Shown piece by piece: positions 22,797 to 42,189 of a stretch of DNA of 45,529 nt. The stretch comes from Opitutales bacterium (lineage in GTDB: Bacteria > Verrucomicrobiota > Verrucomicrobiia > Opitutales > Oceanipulchritudinaceae): assembly GCA_020831485.1 (NCBI GenBank), contig JAFIGG010000025.1, positions 1 through 45,529 on the forward strand, read 5' to 3'. The notes under the pieces were generated by a model. It did not search any database and had not been told where the DNA came from. It worked only from the letters and a program-made list of their open reading frames with translations. Position 1 is the first letter of the stretch. The number at the start of each line of letters is the position of its first letter. Both the position numbers and the translations under genes were made by a program.

Positions 22797-23417
22797 TCAC
22801 CGGATCACGGTATGTATGGAACCTTCGCTGTATCCTGGGTATTTCCGGTAGCATTGGCAAAGACCGGCTTTGATTGGGTTCTGCTGTATGTAATGGCGAA
22901 TCAGTTCCAGGGACGTATTTGAGCGTATCCAGTGATCGAACCAGTCTTCTTGCCAGAGCCTGCCGGTTCGATTCAAGAGCTGATTCAATTGGCGAGATGT
23001 TCTGCCTTTGAATTGTGTCATGAAGGCTTGGAGATCATGACTCTGGCAAGAATTCGACCGGGTGACGAAGTGGATATGATTTGGCATTAGGATCAGTGGC
23101 CCGCTTTGCCAATCTCGTGAAGCGATGGCATTGAGGAGGATTGGGACGGCCTCTTTGCATCTCTTGTCCGAGACGAATGGCGAGAGCCCCAGGCATCGAT
23201 CCAGATAAGTGTCCAAAATAAGAAAGTATTGCCGCTGTAAATGGATTAACTGGAGGGATTTGGCTTCCGCTTGAACCACCGCTTTTGCTGCTTTCCGCAG
23301 ACGATGCTTGACCGAATCAGGCAAGCTGCCAGCACAGCGCACCGTTATAAAATACGTTCCGTTTTCGACCTCCCAATGCGGGAGTTGCTTACGCCATATG
23401 CGAACGATTTTTTGCAT
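22797..23417 (-). CDS. REP-associated tyrosine transposase (RAYT, Y1/HUH)
   Basis: Single-strand DNA nuclease of the IS200/IS605-like Y1 family, 206 residues. Seen: the HUH motif in LMPNHIHF, the N-terminal YFITVRC strand, and the candidate catalytic Tyr in RHYIQQNPIKAG. RAYTs are chromosomal single-copy relatives of transposases that cut and spread REP palindromes; the E. coli enzyme recognises a 5'-GTAG beside the hairpin. Here the gene lies between two near-identical GTAG-headed inverted-repeat elements (22705-22796 and 23476-23569), which are therefore its probable substrates. Length and motifs look complete, so it may be active. Confidence 0.9.
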   Translation of the reverse strand: MQKIVRIWRKQLPHWEVENGTYFITVRCAGSLPDSVKHRLRKAAKAVVQAEAKSLQLIHLQRQYFLILDTYLDRCLGLSPFVSDKRCKEAVPILLNAIASRDWQSGPLILMPNHIHFVTRSNSCQSHDLQAFMTQFKGRTSRQLNQLLNRTGRLWQEDWFDHWIRSNTSLELIRHYIQQNPIKAGLCQCYRKYPGYSEGSIHTVIR

Positions 23418-36656: not shown

Positions 36657-37373
36657 TTAGGCCTTTAACAGGTAGTCGCGGAGTCCGTTGAGGTTCAATA
36701 CCTGGATGGATTTCCCTTCGACTTCGATGAGGGCTTCGGTCTTCAGGCGTGCGAACACGCGGGAGAGGGTTTCACTGGTGATGCCGAGTTGGCTGGCGAG
36801 CAAGTGTTTTGCCAGCGGAAGCTGGATGGCGGGGGTGGGCTGTTCACTCAGGCCCTGTTCATCCACTTGTTTCAGCAGCCACTGGGCGATGCGGGATTCG
36901 GCCTGGCGGAGTTTGAGTGCCTCGACGGTTTCCACCAGATACTTGAGGTGGAGGCTCATGGAGGCCAGGATGCTCAGGGCAATATCCGGGTCACGGTGAA
37001 TCTGCTGACGAAAGTAGTCGGTGCGGACCAGGATGACTTGGCTGTTTTCAGTAGTCTTGGCCGAAGCCGGATAACTCTGATCGCCGACCAGAACCACTTC
37101 ACCAAAACACTCTCCCGGGTAAAAGACCCGGATTACCTGCTCTTTGCCGTCTTCGGTAACCCGGTGGACGTTGATCGCTCCTGCATGCACAATGTAGAAT
37201 CCATGCGCCGGTTCGCCTTCGTGGAAAAGGTAGTTGCCTTTGGTGACGGATTGCAGCTCACAGCCTTCGACAAAACGGTCGAGAGAATCTGGAGCAATGT
37301 CGGCGAACATGGGGGTCTTGCGCAGGGTTTGCTTGACCATAACGTCGCTGAGGCGGTGCGAGGAAGAACTCAT
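36657..37373 (-). CDS. Crp/Fnr-family transcription regulator, probable nitrogen-oxide regulator
   Basis: Regulator of 238 residues: cyclic-nucleotide-type beta-barrel (about 18-135, with KGNYLFHEGEPAHGFYIVHAG and YPGECFGEVVL), dimer helix, and a helix-turn-helix (LASQLGITSETLSRVFARL) in which Glu, Ser and Arg match the recognition residues of the FNR/DNR group. No N-terminal Cys cluster, so it is not an oxygen-sensing Fe-S FNR; a haem- or NO-sensing DNR/NnrR-like role fits. It is divergent from the DUF2249 gene, and an FNR-type box lies between them at 37422. Its likely targets also include the nirK-like gene, which has the same box. Confidence 0.9.
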   Translation of the reverse strand: MSSSSHRLSDVMVKQTLRKTPMFADIAPDSLDRFVEGCELQSVTKGNYLFHEGEPAHGFYIVHAGAINVHRVTEDGKEQVIRVFYPGECFGEVVLVGDQSYPASAKTTENSQVILVRTDYFRQQIHRDPDIALSILASMSLHLKYLVETVEALKLRQAESRIAQWLLKQVDEQGLSEQPTPAIQLPLAKHLLASQLGITSETLSRVFARLKTEALIEVEGKSIQVLNLNGLRDYLLKA

Positions 37374-37421: not shown

Positions 37422-37435
37422 TTGATTCGGGTCAA
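37422..37435. promoter_or_regulatory. FNR/DNR-type box before the DUF2249 gene
   Basis: TTGAT-TCGG-GTCAA, one base from the consensus TTGAT-N4-ATCAA. The candidate -10 TAGACT (37458-37463) has its centre 32 bases from the box centre, the spacing of a class II activated promoter (site at -41.5). The predicted first transcript base is the A of the ATG at 37470, so the message would be leaderless. It may also control the divergent regulator gene. Confidence 0.65.
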
Positions 37436-37469
37436 GGATTTGCGGGGCAAGCTGGTGTAGACTGTGGGC

Positions 37470-37937
37470 ATGAAATCGATAGAACCGCTCCAACTGGACG
37501 TCTGCCCCTTACTGGCCAGCGGCCAGGATCCGTTTGCAGAAATTATGGCCGCAAGAGCACGTTTGCAGCCCGGTCAAAGCTTTGTGCTGACTGTACCCTT
37601 TGAACCTCTACCGCTTTACGAGGTGTTTCGCAATCAGGGGTTTACAGTGGATCCCCGGCAGCTTGATGGAGTCTGGAAGATAACCTTCAGCCCCGGAGAG
37701 GCGGCGCCAGCCGCCAGCGGCCAAGTGCTGGATTTGCGCGATGTCGACCCCCCGGGACCTTTGCAGAAAGCTTTGGAAGCGGCCTCTATGCTTGGTCGAG
37801 AAGACAGCTTGGTGATTCACACGCGGTTCCGTCCGGTGTTTCTCCTCGAACAACTTGAAGAGCGGGGCTTTGAAGCCGAAAGCATCGAACAAGGCCCTGA
37901 GAACTGGGAAACCCATATATGGCGAATAACCGCCTGA
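37470..37937 (+). CDS. Tandem DUF2249-domain protein
   Basis: Small soluble protein of 155 residues made of two DUF2249-like halves (about 4-70 and 85-152), each ending with a strand-helix unit (PFEPLPLYEVFRNQGF; RFRPVFLLEQLEERGF). DUF2249 proteins have a TusA-like fold and often lie near nitrite and nitric oxide genes, but their reaction is not known. The usual start called here would be GTG 37464; I prefer ATG 37470, which coincides with the predicted transcription start from the FNR-type promoter. It is 22 bases upstream of the NnrS/CcoN-like gene, in one operon. Confidence 0.82.
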   Translation: MKSIEPLQLDVCPLLASGQDPFAEIMAARARLQPGQSFVLTVPFEPLPLYEVFRNQGFTVDPRQLDGVWKITFSPGEAAPAASGQVLDLRDVDPPGPLQKALEAASMLGREDSLVIHTRFRPVFLLEQLEERGFEAESIEQGPENWETHIWRITA

Positions 37938-37959: not shown

Positions 37960-39240
37960 ATGAAAACCGTCAAAGTCCCTAAAGCCCGTGTGGCCGCCCT
38001 TGCTTTTGCATTTATATGCGTTGGTGCACTGCTGTTTTCCGCGATCCTGGCAGCCCTTTGGGTTCAACCGGAGTTGTTGCTCGGGGACCCCTACCGACCC
38101 GTTGCCCTGTTGCTTGGGCATGGATTGGCCATTGGATTTGTTGCGTCGGTTCTATTCGGTGCCAGTTATTTGATCCTCCCGGTGATGGCGGCTGCTCCGC
38201 TCTGGAGTGTGCGTCTGGGCTGGTTGCACGCTGGGGTGCATGTATCGGGCCTTTTGCTTCTTGCGGCCGGACTGCTTTTTCCTGCCAGTATTCATCCTTT
38301 TATTGGATTGGGCCTGCTTTCAGTTGGATTTCTCGCTTACAGCACTAATCTAATGATGACGGCCTCCCGCTACAACCGCTGGGATCCGGCGCTGGTCAGT
38401 GTCTTTTTTGCGCTCTGTTGGCTGGGCTTGGTTGGAGGCTTTTCCTTGTGGTTGTTTGCGGATCTGAGCTTTGGCGATCCGCGCCATTATTCGGCCGCCC
38501 TGCTTGAGGGCCAGGCCCTGGTTGCACTGCTTGGATTTTTCTGGCTCTTTCTGTTGGGAGCGGCCCTAAAGGTTCTGAGTATGTTTCTGGTCAGCCGCAA
38601 TCGGCCCGGGGCCTGGTCCTGGCTGGGATTGGTTCTGCTCAACCTTGCTTTGTTCATTATGCCCATCGGAATGCTGTTGGGGCTGGATTGGACACTGACG
38701 GTCGGACTGCTTGTTCTTGTCGGCAGTCTGTGTTACGGCATCGATTATCTGCGCCTGGCGATGGGCTCGGACCGTCTTTGGAGCGGGGATTTACTAAGCG
38801 CCTCCGCAGGGCTTCTGCTCGGACTGCCGCTTATTGTCTGGGTTGTCGCGGGCATGCCCATGGTTGTCGAAGTTGAAGGCATCACTTTGCAGGAGCAGGC
38901 ACGGGCGTATTTTGCTACGGCCCTGCTTGGTTGTTTTGTCCTTGTGGCCTTTGGCCTGGGTATGCGCGTGTTGCCCTTTCTGGCCTGGCAGCTGCGCTTT
39001 CTTCCCAAGGTCGGACGTGAGCCCGTCCCGGATGTGGAAACTCTGGTTCACGCACCTGCGCGCGGAGCTGTTTTAATCTGTCTCTTGCTGGCCTGGGCTT
39101 ACCTTGCCGCAGGCCAACTCTGGCAGAGCCCGGTAGGCGTGCAGTTTGCCGTAATCTGTTTTATCGTCGCCAGTCTCTGGGCCGTCTATGCCGTATCACC
39201 GGCACTGAAGTGCATCCTGCAAAAGCCGGCAAAACCTTGA
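37960..39240 (+). CDS. Polytopic NnrS/CcoN-like membrane protein
   Basis: Inner-membrane protein of 426 residues with about 12 helices. HGLAIGFV in the second helix and WLHAGVH in the next resemble haem-binding helices of the haem-copper oxidase/NnrS group, but the binuclear-centre motif with paired His is not visible, so it is probably not a working oxidase or NO reductase. NnrS proteins protect against NO stress in denitrifiers. Good ribosome site AGAGGA (37947-37952), 7 bases from the ATG. It lies between the DUF2249 and NirK-like genes, and its stop codon lies inside the FNR box of the latter. Confidence 0.75.
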   Translation: MKTVKVPKARVAALAFAFICVGALLFSAILAALWVQPELLLGDPYRPVALLLGHGLAIGFVASVLFGASYLILPVMAAAPLWSVRLGWLHAGVHVSGLLLLAAGLLFPASIHPFIGLGLLSVGFLAYSTNLMMTASRYNRWDPALVSVFFALCWLGLVGGFSLWLFADLSFGDPRHYSAALLEGQALVALLGFFWLFLLGAALKVLSMFLVSRNRPGAWSWLGLVLLNLALFIMPIGMLLGLDWTLTVGLLVLVGSLCYGIDYLRLAMGSDRLWSGDLLSASAGLLLGLPLIVWVVAGMPMVVEVEGITLQEQARAYFATALLGCFVLVAFGLGMRVLPFLAWQLRFLPKVGREPVPDVETLVHAPARGAVLICLLLAWAYLAAGQLWQSPVGVQFAVICFIVASLWAVYAVSPALKCILQKPAKP

Positions 39241-39250
39241 TGCGGGTCAA
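39237..39250. promoter_or_regulatory. FNR/DNR-type box before the NirK-like gene
   Basis: TTGAT-GCGG-GTCAA, identical to the box at 37422 except for the first spacer base; both are followed by GG. The candidate -10 TAAACT (39273-39278) again has its centre 32 bases away, predicting a transcript start at 39285, three bases before the ATG at 39288. The stop codon of the upstream gene overlaps the box. Confidence 0.65.
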
Positions 39251-39287: not shown

Positions 39288-41168
39288 ATGAAAACAATAC
39301 CGTATCCATCACACTTCAATCCTGCTTCGGGCTTTTGGGGAAAGTATCTGAAAGCCTTACCCCTGGCTGCTATTGCATTGTGGATACAACCAACGGAACT
39401 AAAAGCCTGCGATTCCTGTAATCTGGCTTTTACGGATGAGGTTATGTCCGAGCGTGCGAATACTGCTGTGGGACGCGATCTGCTACGGGCCATGGAGAAT
39501 CAACGCAACCTCCCGTTGGACGGCTTTAGCAGTGAGTTTCTGAAAGAGGCGCAGTCCGAGCGTCTGGAAGCCAACCGCGCAGCCCGGGGCTTGACTGAAG
39601 CACCGATCTCGGAAGGCATTCCGGTCGCCACTGACGGCGACGTCGAGGCCGCCGTCGCCCAGGCTGCACAACTTCAGGCAGGCAACCGCGAAGTGCCGGA
39701 CTACATGCGGTCGAGTGAATTTATTGAGATTATCGAGCGGGATTATGCCCTGCCGACGACCCCCACTTCAATGGTTCCCCAGGATGCACCCGTTGACAAG
39801 AGTTTCACCATTCGCCTACACGAGGGGCAAACATACATTGGCAACGGCGTGGTTTATGACGGCTTCCTCACTGACGGTAAAATTCCCGGTCCCACGATCA
39901 TCGTGCAGGAAGGGGATGTTGTTGAGTTCAACATCGTCAATGACGGCTCTGTGCCTCACGGCGCATCAATTCACGCCGCCTACACCCAGACTTCAAAATA
40001 CATCGGCAGCATTGGTCCCGGAACCACCAAGTCCGTGCGTTTTCGCGCCATGCACCCGGGGGTTTACATGTATCACTGTGCCCCTGGTGGACACGCCATT
40101 CCAATGCACGTATTATTTGGTCAATACGGCATGATGGTCGTCGAACCGAAGACCGAGAAGTTTCAACTCGAAAAGGAACTGGGGCATGCGCCGAATCTTG
40201 AGCTCTACCTGACCCAGCATGAAATCTACGCCTCAGGTAAAAACGCCATTGAAGGCGATGCTGCCTACACGATGTTCAACGGCCGTTTGTTTCGCTACGT
40301 TGAAGAGCCTATTATGGTCAATCCAGGTGATTACGTACGTGTCCATTTTTTGAATGTTGGTCCGAATCTCCTGTCGACCTTCCACCTGGTTGGTATCATC
40401 TGGGACTATGTCTACTGGCAGGGTCACCCGAAAAACATCATGACCGGTGGGCAGACCGTGACGGCTGGCCCTTCGGATTCATTCACGATCGAATTTCGCA
40501 TCCCGCCCGATGAAGGTGCTTACACGATGCTGACGCATGCCGTTGGGTCTGCCAGTCGCGGAGCGATCGGTTTACTGGTAGCTGATGCCAGTGCTGAGCT
40601 GGAGCCCCATCGCCGGGTGCTGCAAGACGGCCCGGAGTTCACCGAGGCCGAAATGGCTGAATACAGTGCCGACGCAGTGCGGGTGGTTTCGCCCTTCAAA
40701 GTGGGGACGCACCCCGTCGATCAGCCTGTAGTCTATGGTCCGGAAACCGAAGAAGTGCATATTTCGATTATTGGTAATTCCTACTGGCCCAAGGTCGTTC
40801 AAATCGCGCCCGGAACCAAGGTTACCTGGACCAACGAGGACGTCTTTACCTACCTCGCCGGTGAGTATTCGGGAATCCACAACGCTGTTGCCCTGAGCGC
40901 GCCGCCAGAGTCCGAGGACGGAGGTTTCGTGTCGCCCTTGCTCGCTCATGGCGAAAGCTACAGCTATGTTTTTGAAGAGGAGTGGGAGTATGAATACATC
41001 TGCACTCCGCACCCTTACATGAAGGCTAAGATCATCGTTAAGCAACCCGCCTACGACCTGAGCAAAAGCGCTGGTGGACCGACCGCCCTGTCCGGCTGGG
41101 CCCTGCCCCTGCTTGGTATCTGCCTGCTGATTTCCACCGGCGCCTGGATCCGCAGCCGTAGATCCTGA
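39288..41168 (+). CDS. nirK: NirK-like copper protein with C-terminal cupredoxin domain and membrane anchor
   Basis: Probable copper nitrite reductase relative, 626 residues. Signal region (about 20-40) followed by a CDSC motif (41-44); two cupredoxin domains of the NirK type (about 170-430); an added plastocyanin-like domain (about 485-586) with H531, C572, H575 and M578; and a C-terminal helix (601-620). Type 2 copper ligands H229, H263 and H417 and the catalytic-type His H366 are present. However, the catalytic Asp of PH-x-x-D-x-H is S227, and the type 1 axial Met is Q279; C264 and H274 remain. Activity is therefore uncertain: nitrite reduction by an altered mechanism, or another copper oxidase. 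FNR-type promoter upstream and strong terminator downstream. Confidence 0.85.
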   Translation: MKTIPYPSHFNPASGFWGKYLKALPLAAIALWIQPTELKACDSCNLAFTDEVMSERANTAVGRDLLRAMENQRNLPLDGFSSEFLKEAQSERLEANRAARGLTEAPISEGIPVATDGDVEAAVAQAAQLQAGNREVPDYMRSSEFIEIIERDYALPTTPTSMVPQDAPVDKSFTIRLHEGQTYIGNGVVYDGFLTDGKIPGPTIIVQEGDVVEFNIVNDGSVPHGASIHAAYTQTSKYIGSIGPGTTKSVRFRAMHPGVYMYHCAPGGHAIPMHVLFGQYGMMVVEPKTEKFQLEKELGHAPNLELYLTQHEIYASGKNAIEGDAAYTMFNGRLFRYVEEPIMVNPGDYVRVHFLNVGPNLLSTFHLVGIIWDYVYWQGHPKNIMTGGQTVTAGPSDSFTIEFRIPPDEGAYTMLTHAVGSASRGAIGLLVADASAELEPHRRVLQDGPEFTEAEMAEYSADAVRVVSPFKVGTHPVDQPVVYGPETEEVHISIIGNSYWPKVVQIAPGTKVTWTNEDVFTYLAGEYSGIHNAVALSAPPESEDGGFVSPLLAHGESYSYVFEEEWEYEYICTPHPYMKAKIIVKQPAYDLSKSAGGPTALSGWALPLLGICLLISTGAWIRSRRS

Positions 41169-41247: not shown

Positions 41248-41281
41248 CCCTCCCCGGCTTGAGACCCGGGGAGGGTTTTTT
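41248..41281 (+). terminator. Intrinsic terminator of the NirK-like gene
   Basis: Perfect 10-bp stem CCCTCCCCGG / CCGGGGAGGG with an 8-base loop, followed by six T (41276-41281). It lies 79 bases after the nirK-like stop codon. On the minus strand it reaches the 3' end of the four-helix-bundle gene. Confidence 0.9.
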
Positions 41282-42107
41282 ATACGCGTCTTTGTCTTCG
41301 GCGCTGTTCCTGGCGTTTGCGGTAGATTCTTTCCGTGAAGCCACCTTCGTTCAGGAAGGACTGTTCGAGGGTTTCCAACTGTCGTTTCAAAAGGTAGATC
41401 GCCTGATTGATCAGACAGATCAGCGTGTTGGCTGCTACTTCGGCGTTGGCTTTTGCGGTGTCGTAGGGGTCGAGAGGCTCGGATTCGTCGGACGGGTCGG
41501 ACTTGTCTGACTTGTCCGACGGGTCCGACAAGTCGGACTCGAACCAGGCTTGTGGGTAGCTGCGAAAGCGCTGGCGCACGGCGAGGGCTTCGGCAGAGTC
41601 TTTTTGCCACAGGCTGAGTTTGTTCTGGCGAAGGTAGTCTTCGTAATCGAGCAGCAGTTCTTCCAGGCTGGCTTTGGCGACATTGGTGAGTTTCAGCTCG
41701 GTCTTTTTCGAGGTGGCGGCGGCCATGCTGCCTTCGGCAATGTTCTGGCGACCGCTGCGCGCCGCCTGCACCATTTGGTCGTGCGTGCGGGATCGTCGTG
41801 TGATAAAGCGGTCACAGAAAATCCGCGTCGCGTCGTAGACCAGCGAGGCCACCTGGAAACCACGGAGTTTCCGGTAGCCACCATGTTTGTGGAGGAGGCC
41901 TGGTTTTTTGTTGGACGGGTCGGACCTGTCGGACTTGTCGGAGGCGTCGGACAGGTCAGACAAAACCTTTCGCACATCCCGCACCATTCGATTTACCAGA
42001 TCTCGCCAGGCCCGGTCGGTGGTTGGCAGGCCGCCGGGGCAATTGGCCGGGGTCAGACGGGCAATCCATTCGAGGCGTTTGAGCTGCTGTCTTTGAACGC
42101 TTTTCAT
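41280..42107 (-). CDS. Four-helix-bundle (S23/IVP-type) protein with internal Ser-Asp-X repeats
   Basis: Protein of 275 residues from the ATG at 42105-42107. The four-helix-bundle core resembles the 23S-rRNA intervening-sequence protein family (FQVASLVYDATRIFCDRF, RSGRQNIAEGSMAAATSKK, ASLEELLLDYEDYLRQ, ANTLICLINQAIYLLKRQLE). Its function is unknown. Two Ser-Asp-X stretches (about 49-66 and 190-207) interrupt it, coded by two 54-base arrays of 9-base repeats. The frame is kept, so the protein is probably still made. The basic C terminus (RKRQEQRRRQRRV) may bind nucleic acid. Confidence 0.78.
   Translation of the reverse strand: MKSVQRQQLKRLEWIARLTPANCPGGLPTTDRAWRDLVNRMVRDVRKVLSDLSDASDKSDRSDPSNKKPGLLHKHGGYRKLRGFQVASLVYDATRIFCDRFITRRSRTHDQMVQAARSGRQNIAEGSMAAATSKKTELKLTNVAKASLEELLLDYEDYLRQNKLSLWQKDSAEALAVRQRFRSYPQAWFESDLSDPSDKSDKSDPSDESEPLDPYDTAKANAEVAANTLICLINQAIYLLKRQLETLEQSFLNEGGFTERIYRKRQEQRRRQRRV
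41487..41540. repeat. Array of six 9-bp GTCGGACNN units inside the four-helix-bundle gene
   Basis: Six units of the type GTC(G/C/T)GAC plus two variable bases, 54 bases in all, coding for Ser-Asp-X triplets on the minus strand. Units with GTCCGAC and GTCGGAC are reverse complements, so the array can fold on itself. Confidence 0.8.
41910..41963. repeat. Second array of six 9-bp GTCGGACNN units
   Basis: Six units, 54 bases, same reading frame and same period as the array at 41487. Units read GTTGGACGG, GTCGGACCT, GTCGGACTT, GTCGGAGGC, GTCGGACAG, GTCAGACAA. Confidence 0.8.
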
Positions 42108-42189
42108 TGTAGCGTTAGTTTTGCGGGTTTTGCTCTCTCTGGCAATGCACAAAGTGGAGCCTGGGGAAACGCAGCGGCTGCTCAGTAAC

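Follow-up and report, generated by a model that had tools for sequence, protein, structure and literature searches.

What kind of enzyme is a NirK-like protein in which both the catalytic Asp and the axial Met of conventional copper nitrite reductases are missing? The question is raised by a gene at positions 39288..41168 (+ strand) of a 45,529-nucleotide stretch of DNA from an Opitutales bacterium, called the window here. A sequence-only reading had proposed that Ser (S227) and Gln (Q279) occupy these two places, that the protein belongs to a separate clade with altered mechanism or substrate, and that the gene lies under an FNR-type promoter among denitrification-type genes. That interpretation as a whole is partly supported. 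The gene, found in a single copy when the contigs of the genome were searched, encodes a 626-aa copper nitrite reductase with three domains, assigned to the TsNirK (Ser/Gln) type by sequence, fold, alignment and tree. With high confidence we infer that it is a periplasmic enzyme reducing nitrite to NO, the inference extending to its activity, electron path and regulation.

A residue-by-residue check located H224-G-A-S227-I-H229, H263-C264, H274, Q279 (five residues past H274), H366 and H417, and thereby verified each of the type 2 copper ligands (H229, H263, H417) and the catalytic-type His (H366) that had been listed as kept. The codon of S227, in the place of the catalytic Asp, lies at 39966..39968 (+) and that of Q279, assigned from sequence as axial ligand of the core type 1 copper, at 40122..40124 (+). 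The Asp and the Met of conventional NirK fall exactly opposite S227 and Q279, so an alignment slip is ruled out. Chance or sequencing error is likewise ruled out, because S227 and Q279 are invariant in 27/27 aligned rows (the window protein and 26 relatives of 51-62% identity, leaving out the cut or frameshifted L028-L031), together with all type 2 ligands, H531, C572, H575 and M578. The nirK frames of L030 (4741-7862) and L031 (5959-7520) look interrupted, by frameshift or assembly error.

The two-domain NirK core with the type 1 and type 2 copper sites spans aa 166-440 (39783..40607, +), as indicated by NCBIfam, a PDB sequence match and fold. It is followed by a plastocyanin-like domain (aa 485-586; 40740..41045, +) in which Pfam and the alignments place a second type 1 copper with the ligands H531, C572, H575 and M578; Pfam describes the core as of multicopper-oxidase type. 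A hydrophobic helix at aa 605-625 (41100..41162, +), seen in the model, is a likely membrane anchor, and a hydrophobic C-terminal tail is common to many, not all, relatives in the 27-row alignment. The AlphaFold2 model, built with 27 sequences, has a mean pLDDT of 74.8, mostly above 85 in the core and low in the N-terminal part. Elsewhere in the window, an ORF at 41280-42152 (-) matches weakly the 23S rRNA intervening-sequence-protein family and carries Ser-Asp repeats derived from a 9-base unit, and an IS200-like (Y1) transposase gene lies at 22797-23417 (-).

The closest known structure was the same by every route. Chain 6hbe_A was the top PDB sequence match (E 8.1e-121 over residues 169-588; next E 5.8e-42), and 6hbe came first when the model was compared with Foldseek (E 8.2e-51, TM 0.89 on target) and with VIA-align 2 (Z 43.2, rmsd 2.4, 405 residues, 47% identity; next best Z 28.7). 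This entry is TsNirK of the hot-spring bacterium Thermus scotoductus SA-01, in which a SerCAT replaces AspCAT, the type 1 copper is coordinated by Gln and the C-terminal domain holds a further type 1 copper; TsNirK is active on nitrite, with a kcat of 65/s and a Km of 27 uM, and its authors placed it in a new subgroup with proteins of Thermus, Fraserbacteria and Crenothrix (PMC6400189; here and below, statements taken from cited articles refer to the available portions of their texts). Every copper ligand or active-site residue named for TsNirK in that portion has a counterpart in the window protein, according to sequence alignments: Ser78/S227, His80/H229, His114/H263, Cys115/C264, His125/H274, Gln130/Q279, His216/H366, Val218/V368, Gln239/Q389, Thr240/T390, His267/H417, Glu385/E526, His390/H531, Cys428/C572, His431/H575 and Met434/M578. 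The odd Ser/Gln pair has thus been explained since 2019, and the window protein is a further member of the crystallised TsNirK subgroup.

The proposal of a separate clade was borne out and its extent could be traced. Scanning contigs with the window protein yielded 30 relatives, labelled Kiritimatiellae, Opitutales, Chthoniobacterales, Phycisphaeraceae, Myxococcales, Wenzhouxiangella and other Gammaproteobacteria, Balneolaceae, Bacteroidetes and Ignavibacteria; since it relied on peptide patterns taken from the window protein, some of them from within the core, this first scan favours close relatives. When 387 genomes of the phylum (Verrucomicrobiota) were searched without such patterns, 31 had matches: five belong to the long type, a sixth (G174) is truncated by the end of its contig, and the rest score like conventional NirK. 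Ser and Gln occur together in 36/36 readable branch sequences (the window protein, L002-L030, L032, L034, L035 and three from Thermus) and Asp and Met in 29/29 conventional ones (24 from the phylum search and 5 others, leaving out of the residue counts four phylum-search matches without a locus); no mixed type was found among these readable sequences. The set used for the tree comprises 61 of them, 35 with Ser/Gln (32 of the long type, 3 from Thermus) and 26 with Asp/Met, and leaves out L030, L031, L033 (on one contig with L003), L048 (truncated by a contig end), L039, L046 and L059. Later separate readings added L030 as Ser/Gln and L039, L046 and L059 as Asp/Met, the interrupted L031 being left out of the counts. 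In one genome two NirK genes lie about 3 kb apart, one of them of the Ser/Gln type (L035 and G155:C33:33955-37249).

A maximum-likelihood tree built on the core domain has the Ser/Gln rows on one side of a branch with 100/100 support and a length of 1.56 (35 vs 26 rows), and Thermus adjoins the long type with 98/93; some branches among the conventional rows are long, and the midpoint root serves for drawing only. The Ser/Gln branch is one clade across several phyla, which extends the subgroup to Verrucomicrobiota, Planctomycetota, Myxococcota, Bacteroidota-related groups, Ignavibacteriota and Gammaproteobacteria. The available portions of PMC4770552 and PMC12569097 do not describe the Ser/Gln motif. 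The replacement of two textbook residues could also be taken as the mark of an inactive or decaying NirK, an idea with next to no probability given that both replacements and all other ligands are invariant through the clade, that the open frame is intact and that the crystallised relative is active (PMC6400189).

The NCBIfam NirK equivalog TIGR02376 accepts none of the proteins of this clade that were scanned. Its cut-off is 296.3 bits, and the score is 138.5 bits for the window protein, 154 bits for the Thermus-type protein and 122-155 bits over all the Ser/Gln proteins scanned (window, five relatives, one Thermus; 7/7 below), whereas four of four conventional proteins reach 337-423 bits. 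An identity as conventional NirK was dismissed on S227/Q279 together with the 138.5 vs 296.3 bits. The gene also occurs in ten Thermus plasmid records, under the name multicopper oxidase (plus plastocyanin/azurin protein in one) or hypothetical protein. Surveys with such models or with Asp/Met motifs would undercount NO producers, because TIGR02376 misses 7/7 of the Ser/Gln proteins scanned and the Thermus plasmid copies go under those other names.

The score under the equivalog cut-off and the loss of the catalytic Asp would also suit a NirK-fold multicopper oxidase with a main substrate other than nitrite (O2, NO, hydroxylamine or metal ions), the Ser/Gln pair marking the change, and NirK-fold multicopper oxidases with a C-terminal cupredoxin domain do exist (PDB 9cck). 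Such a role is nevertheless very improbable: TsNirK reduces nitrite with the same residues (PMC6400189), the window protein retains the type 2 ligands, HisCAT and the Cys-His bridge, and the genes beside the relatives belong to NO and nitrite metabolism. RIC Fe-S repair proteins form a cluster near 7/30 loci (domain scanned on one member), Rrf2 regulators are near 5/30 and cytochromes c, in two clusters, near 4/30 each, cupredoxins or NnrS are near some others (families scanned on representative members), and the Thermus gene adjoins a DUF542 protein, an Rrf2 regulator, a heme-copper subunit and a cytochrome c. A different substrate, as suggested in the sequence-only reading, is not supported by any positive evidence; as to an altered mechanism, a changed proton route around the Ser has been proposed in PMC6400189 and is unproven. 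Judged by TsNirK, the close homologues are ordinary nitrite reductases in the reaction that they catalyze, but not in their copper sites.

With nitrite as substrate, catalysis in the window protein would follow the path shown structurally for TsNirK, from the C-terminal copper through a Glu, the core copper and the Cys-His bridge to the type 2 copper (PMC6400189). A periplasmic cytochrome c or small cupredoxin would deliver an electron to the C-terminal type 1 copper (H531, C572, H575, M578). The electron would then pass via the conserved E526 and a water molecule to the type 1 copper of the core (H224, C264, H274, Q279) and cross the C264-H263 bridge to reach the type 2 copper (H229, H263, and H417 of a neighbouring subunit). 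There nitrite would be reduced, with protons presumably relayed around S227, H366, Q389 and T390 in a network where Ser would take the place of Asp. A donor domain lying intramolecularly over the core type 1 site would fit a low-potential, stellacyanin-like axial Gln. No gene for a donor cytochrome or cupredoxin is adjacent to nirK in the window.

The gene does adjoin genes of the denitrification and NO-response kind, as had been claimed. It is the last of a cluster that begins with a divergent Crp/FNR-family regulator (36657..37373, -; Pfam, NCBIfam), followed by a DUF2249 protein (37464..37937, +; Pfam) and a 426-aa membrane protein (37960..39240, +); L030 and G158 have all four genes in the same order and G366 the last three. 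In Haloferax mediterranei denitrifying conditions induce DUF2249 proteins, and in Thermus such proteins have been linked to the sensing of nitrate (PMC11218638). Neither Pfam nor NCBIfam gave a family match for the membrane protein, and its profile gave no useful alignment to NnrS; its model (pLDDT 84.4) and structure comparison reveal a complete heme-copper oxidase subunit I fold with 12 helices (Z 34.5 over 388 residues to CcoN, 32.5 to NorB). The full heme and CuB histidine set is absent: only H90 and H94 are kept as His (14/14 rows), which sets the protein apart from normal oxidases and NO reductases. Binding of NO or heme by it is a guess. Relatives occur in 11/387 genomes of the phylum, in several beside a Crp-like gene.

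The FNR-type promoter finds support as well. One FNR/NNR-like box, TTGATTCGGGTCAA, was located by pattern search between the regulator and the DUF2249 gene (37422..37435, +) and another, TTGATGCGGGTCAA, just upstream of nirK (39237..39250, +); both match the FNR/NNR consensus. These are the two TTGATnCGGGTCAA sites of the cluster, a pattern that was picked after seeing them and that is found in 0/100 shuffles, while the general pattern TTGAYNNNNRTCAA occurs twice vs 0.13 expected, with 1/100 shuffles as high. The strict form, chosen after the sites were seen, has three copies in the genome; the third (C67), located within a reverse ORF, was set aside as a chance match. Genome-wide the general pattern is not clearly enriched (23 sites vs 18 for the reversed control, one of the 23 being 54 bp before the eNOR-type cluster described below), and the case for regulation therefore rests on position and on G158, where a box is conserved in the same two places, including that upstream of nirK. 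From this the neighbouring Crp/FNR regulator probably switches on nirK through the two boxes.

The genome is 96.8% complete, so that gene absences are soft. Among five heme-copper matches, which include one aa3, one fused cbb3 and one CcoN-like, one is of eNOR type. Its cluster (G000:C21:7115-12160; L064, L065, L101) holds an FNR-like box, a COX1-like 483-aa protein, a CuA-type subunit, subunit I and SCO1, and a heme O synthase gene is divergent to it. Subunit I has Gln at the active-site Tyr position (HQSQ-Q opposite HPEV-Y), a CoxB-like cupredoxin (CuA-type) subunit II lies just upstream and SCO1 downstream; Gln at that position and a cupredoxin subunit II just upstream are the signature of eNOR (PMC8756737), which makes this protein an eNOR-type candidate on sequence grounds. 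NO from the nitrite reductase would then probably be converted to N2O. Another contig (G000:C77, L063) encodes a divergent CcoN-like oxidase, the second of its kind, next to a CcoO-like partner, with scores far under the cut-offs of the families.

NrfA is present in the genome, along with assimilatory nitrate and nitrite reductase genes. In the contigs of this 96.8% complete genome no NosZ over its cut-off was found, and there was no NarG or NapA over cut-offs among five molybdopterin matches, two of them scanned with NCBIfam and the other three judged by ORFs and neighbours as NuoG-like or alternative complex III-like. The lack of NosZ and of a clear NarG or NapA, the removal of nitrite already provided by NrfA and the sensor- or response-like neighbours (DUF2249, Crp/FNR, the HCO-fold protein with few metal ligands) would agree with nitrite being reduced for NO signalling or nitrite detoxification rather than respiration. 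This purpose is possible and deserves some weight, yet it is the less probable one, as the eNOR-type cluster with a box of its own would take NO onward and denitrifiers with an incomplete pathway are common (PMC12569097); a gene for denitrification occurs in 42% of nrfA-only assemblies (PMC10716430). A route from nitrite to NO and N2O beside that from nitrite to ammonium is likely.

The part of the protein ahead of the core is less easily placed. About 125 extra residues precede the core in the window protein and most relatives; the segment at aa 40-165 (39405..39782, +), delimited by alignment and model, consists of a CxxCN motif after the predicted signal region, helices and a linker, modelled with low confidence. 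CxxCN directly follows the predicted signal region in 24/27 aligned rows (absent in L025, L026 and L027) and is absent from two Thermus plasmid proteins; the alignment with 6hbe starts only at residue 20 of the latter. The segment has no PDB sequence match at E 1 and no separate domain match in whole-protein Pfam or NCBIfam scans. In the 387 genomes it gave five clear matches, all tied to Ser/Gln NirK (that of G174 runs to the contig end), and two further weak ones (E 6e-4 and 1e-3). The available portion of PMC6400189 describes neither the CxxCN segment nor the C-terminal membrane helix, and no paper on the segment was found in the openly licensed literature. A TlpA/ResA-like thioredoxin with CxPC is encoded upstream in five loci, a hint of thiol chemistry and no more. 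It is conceivable, if rather unlikely, that the long type is a membrane-tethered version of the Thermus enzyme with a CxxCN dithiol site for copper loading or donor docking, and that in Opitutales-like bacteria it may work with the HCO-fold protein, most of whose metal ligands are lost, as a dedicated NO- or heme-binding partner. If a membrane-tethered long type with a working CxxCN segment exists, the clade would be an overlooked source of NO in many phyla.

Compared with known systems, the window protein stands nearest to TsNirK, with which it has in common the overall fold (Foldseek and VIA-align 2 on the predicted model), the Ser of H-x-x-S-x-H, the axial Gln, the type 2 histidines, the C-terminal type 1 copper domain (His2-Cys-Met), the electron-path Glu and the Val at the Ile site. 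Identity between the two is only ~47%, and unlike TsNirK the window protein carries the ~125-residue N-terminal CxxCN extension and the C-terminal membrane helix; its host and gene neighbours are also different. With conventional two-domain NirK it shares the core fold, the type 2 site, the Cys-His bridge and HisCAT, but differs in having Ser/Gln instead of Asp/Met, a score below the family cut-off and a separate clade. The multicopper oxidase of Nitrosopumilus maritimus (PDB 9cck) likewise has a NirK-like core followed by a C-terminal cupredoxin domain, a likeness of domain layout and fold at ~23% identity (Foldseek rank 3, TM 0.59 on target).
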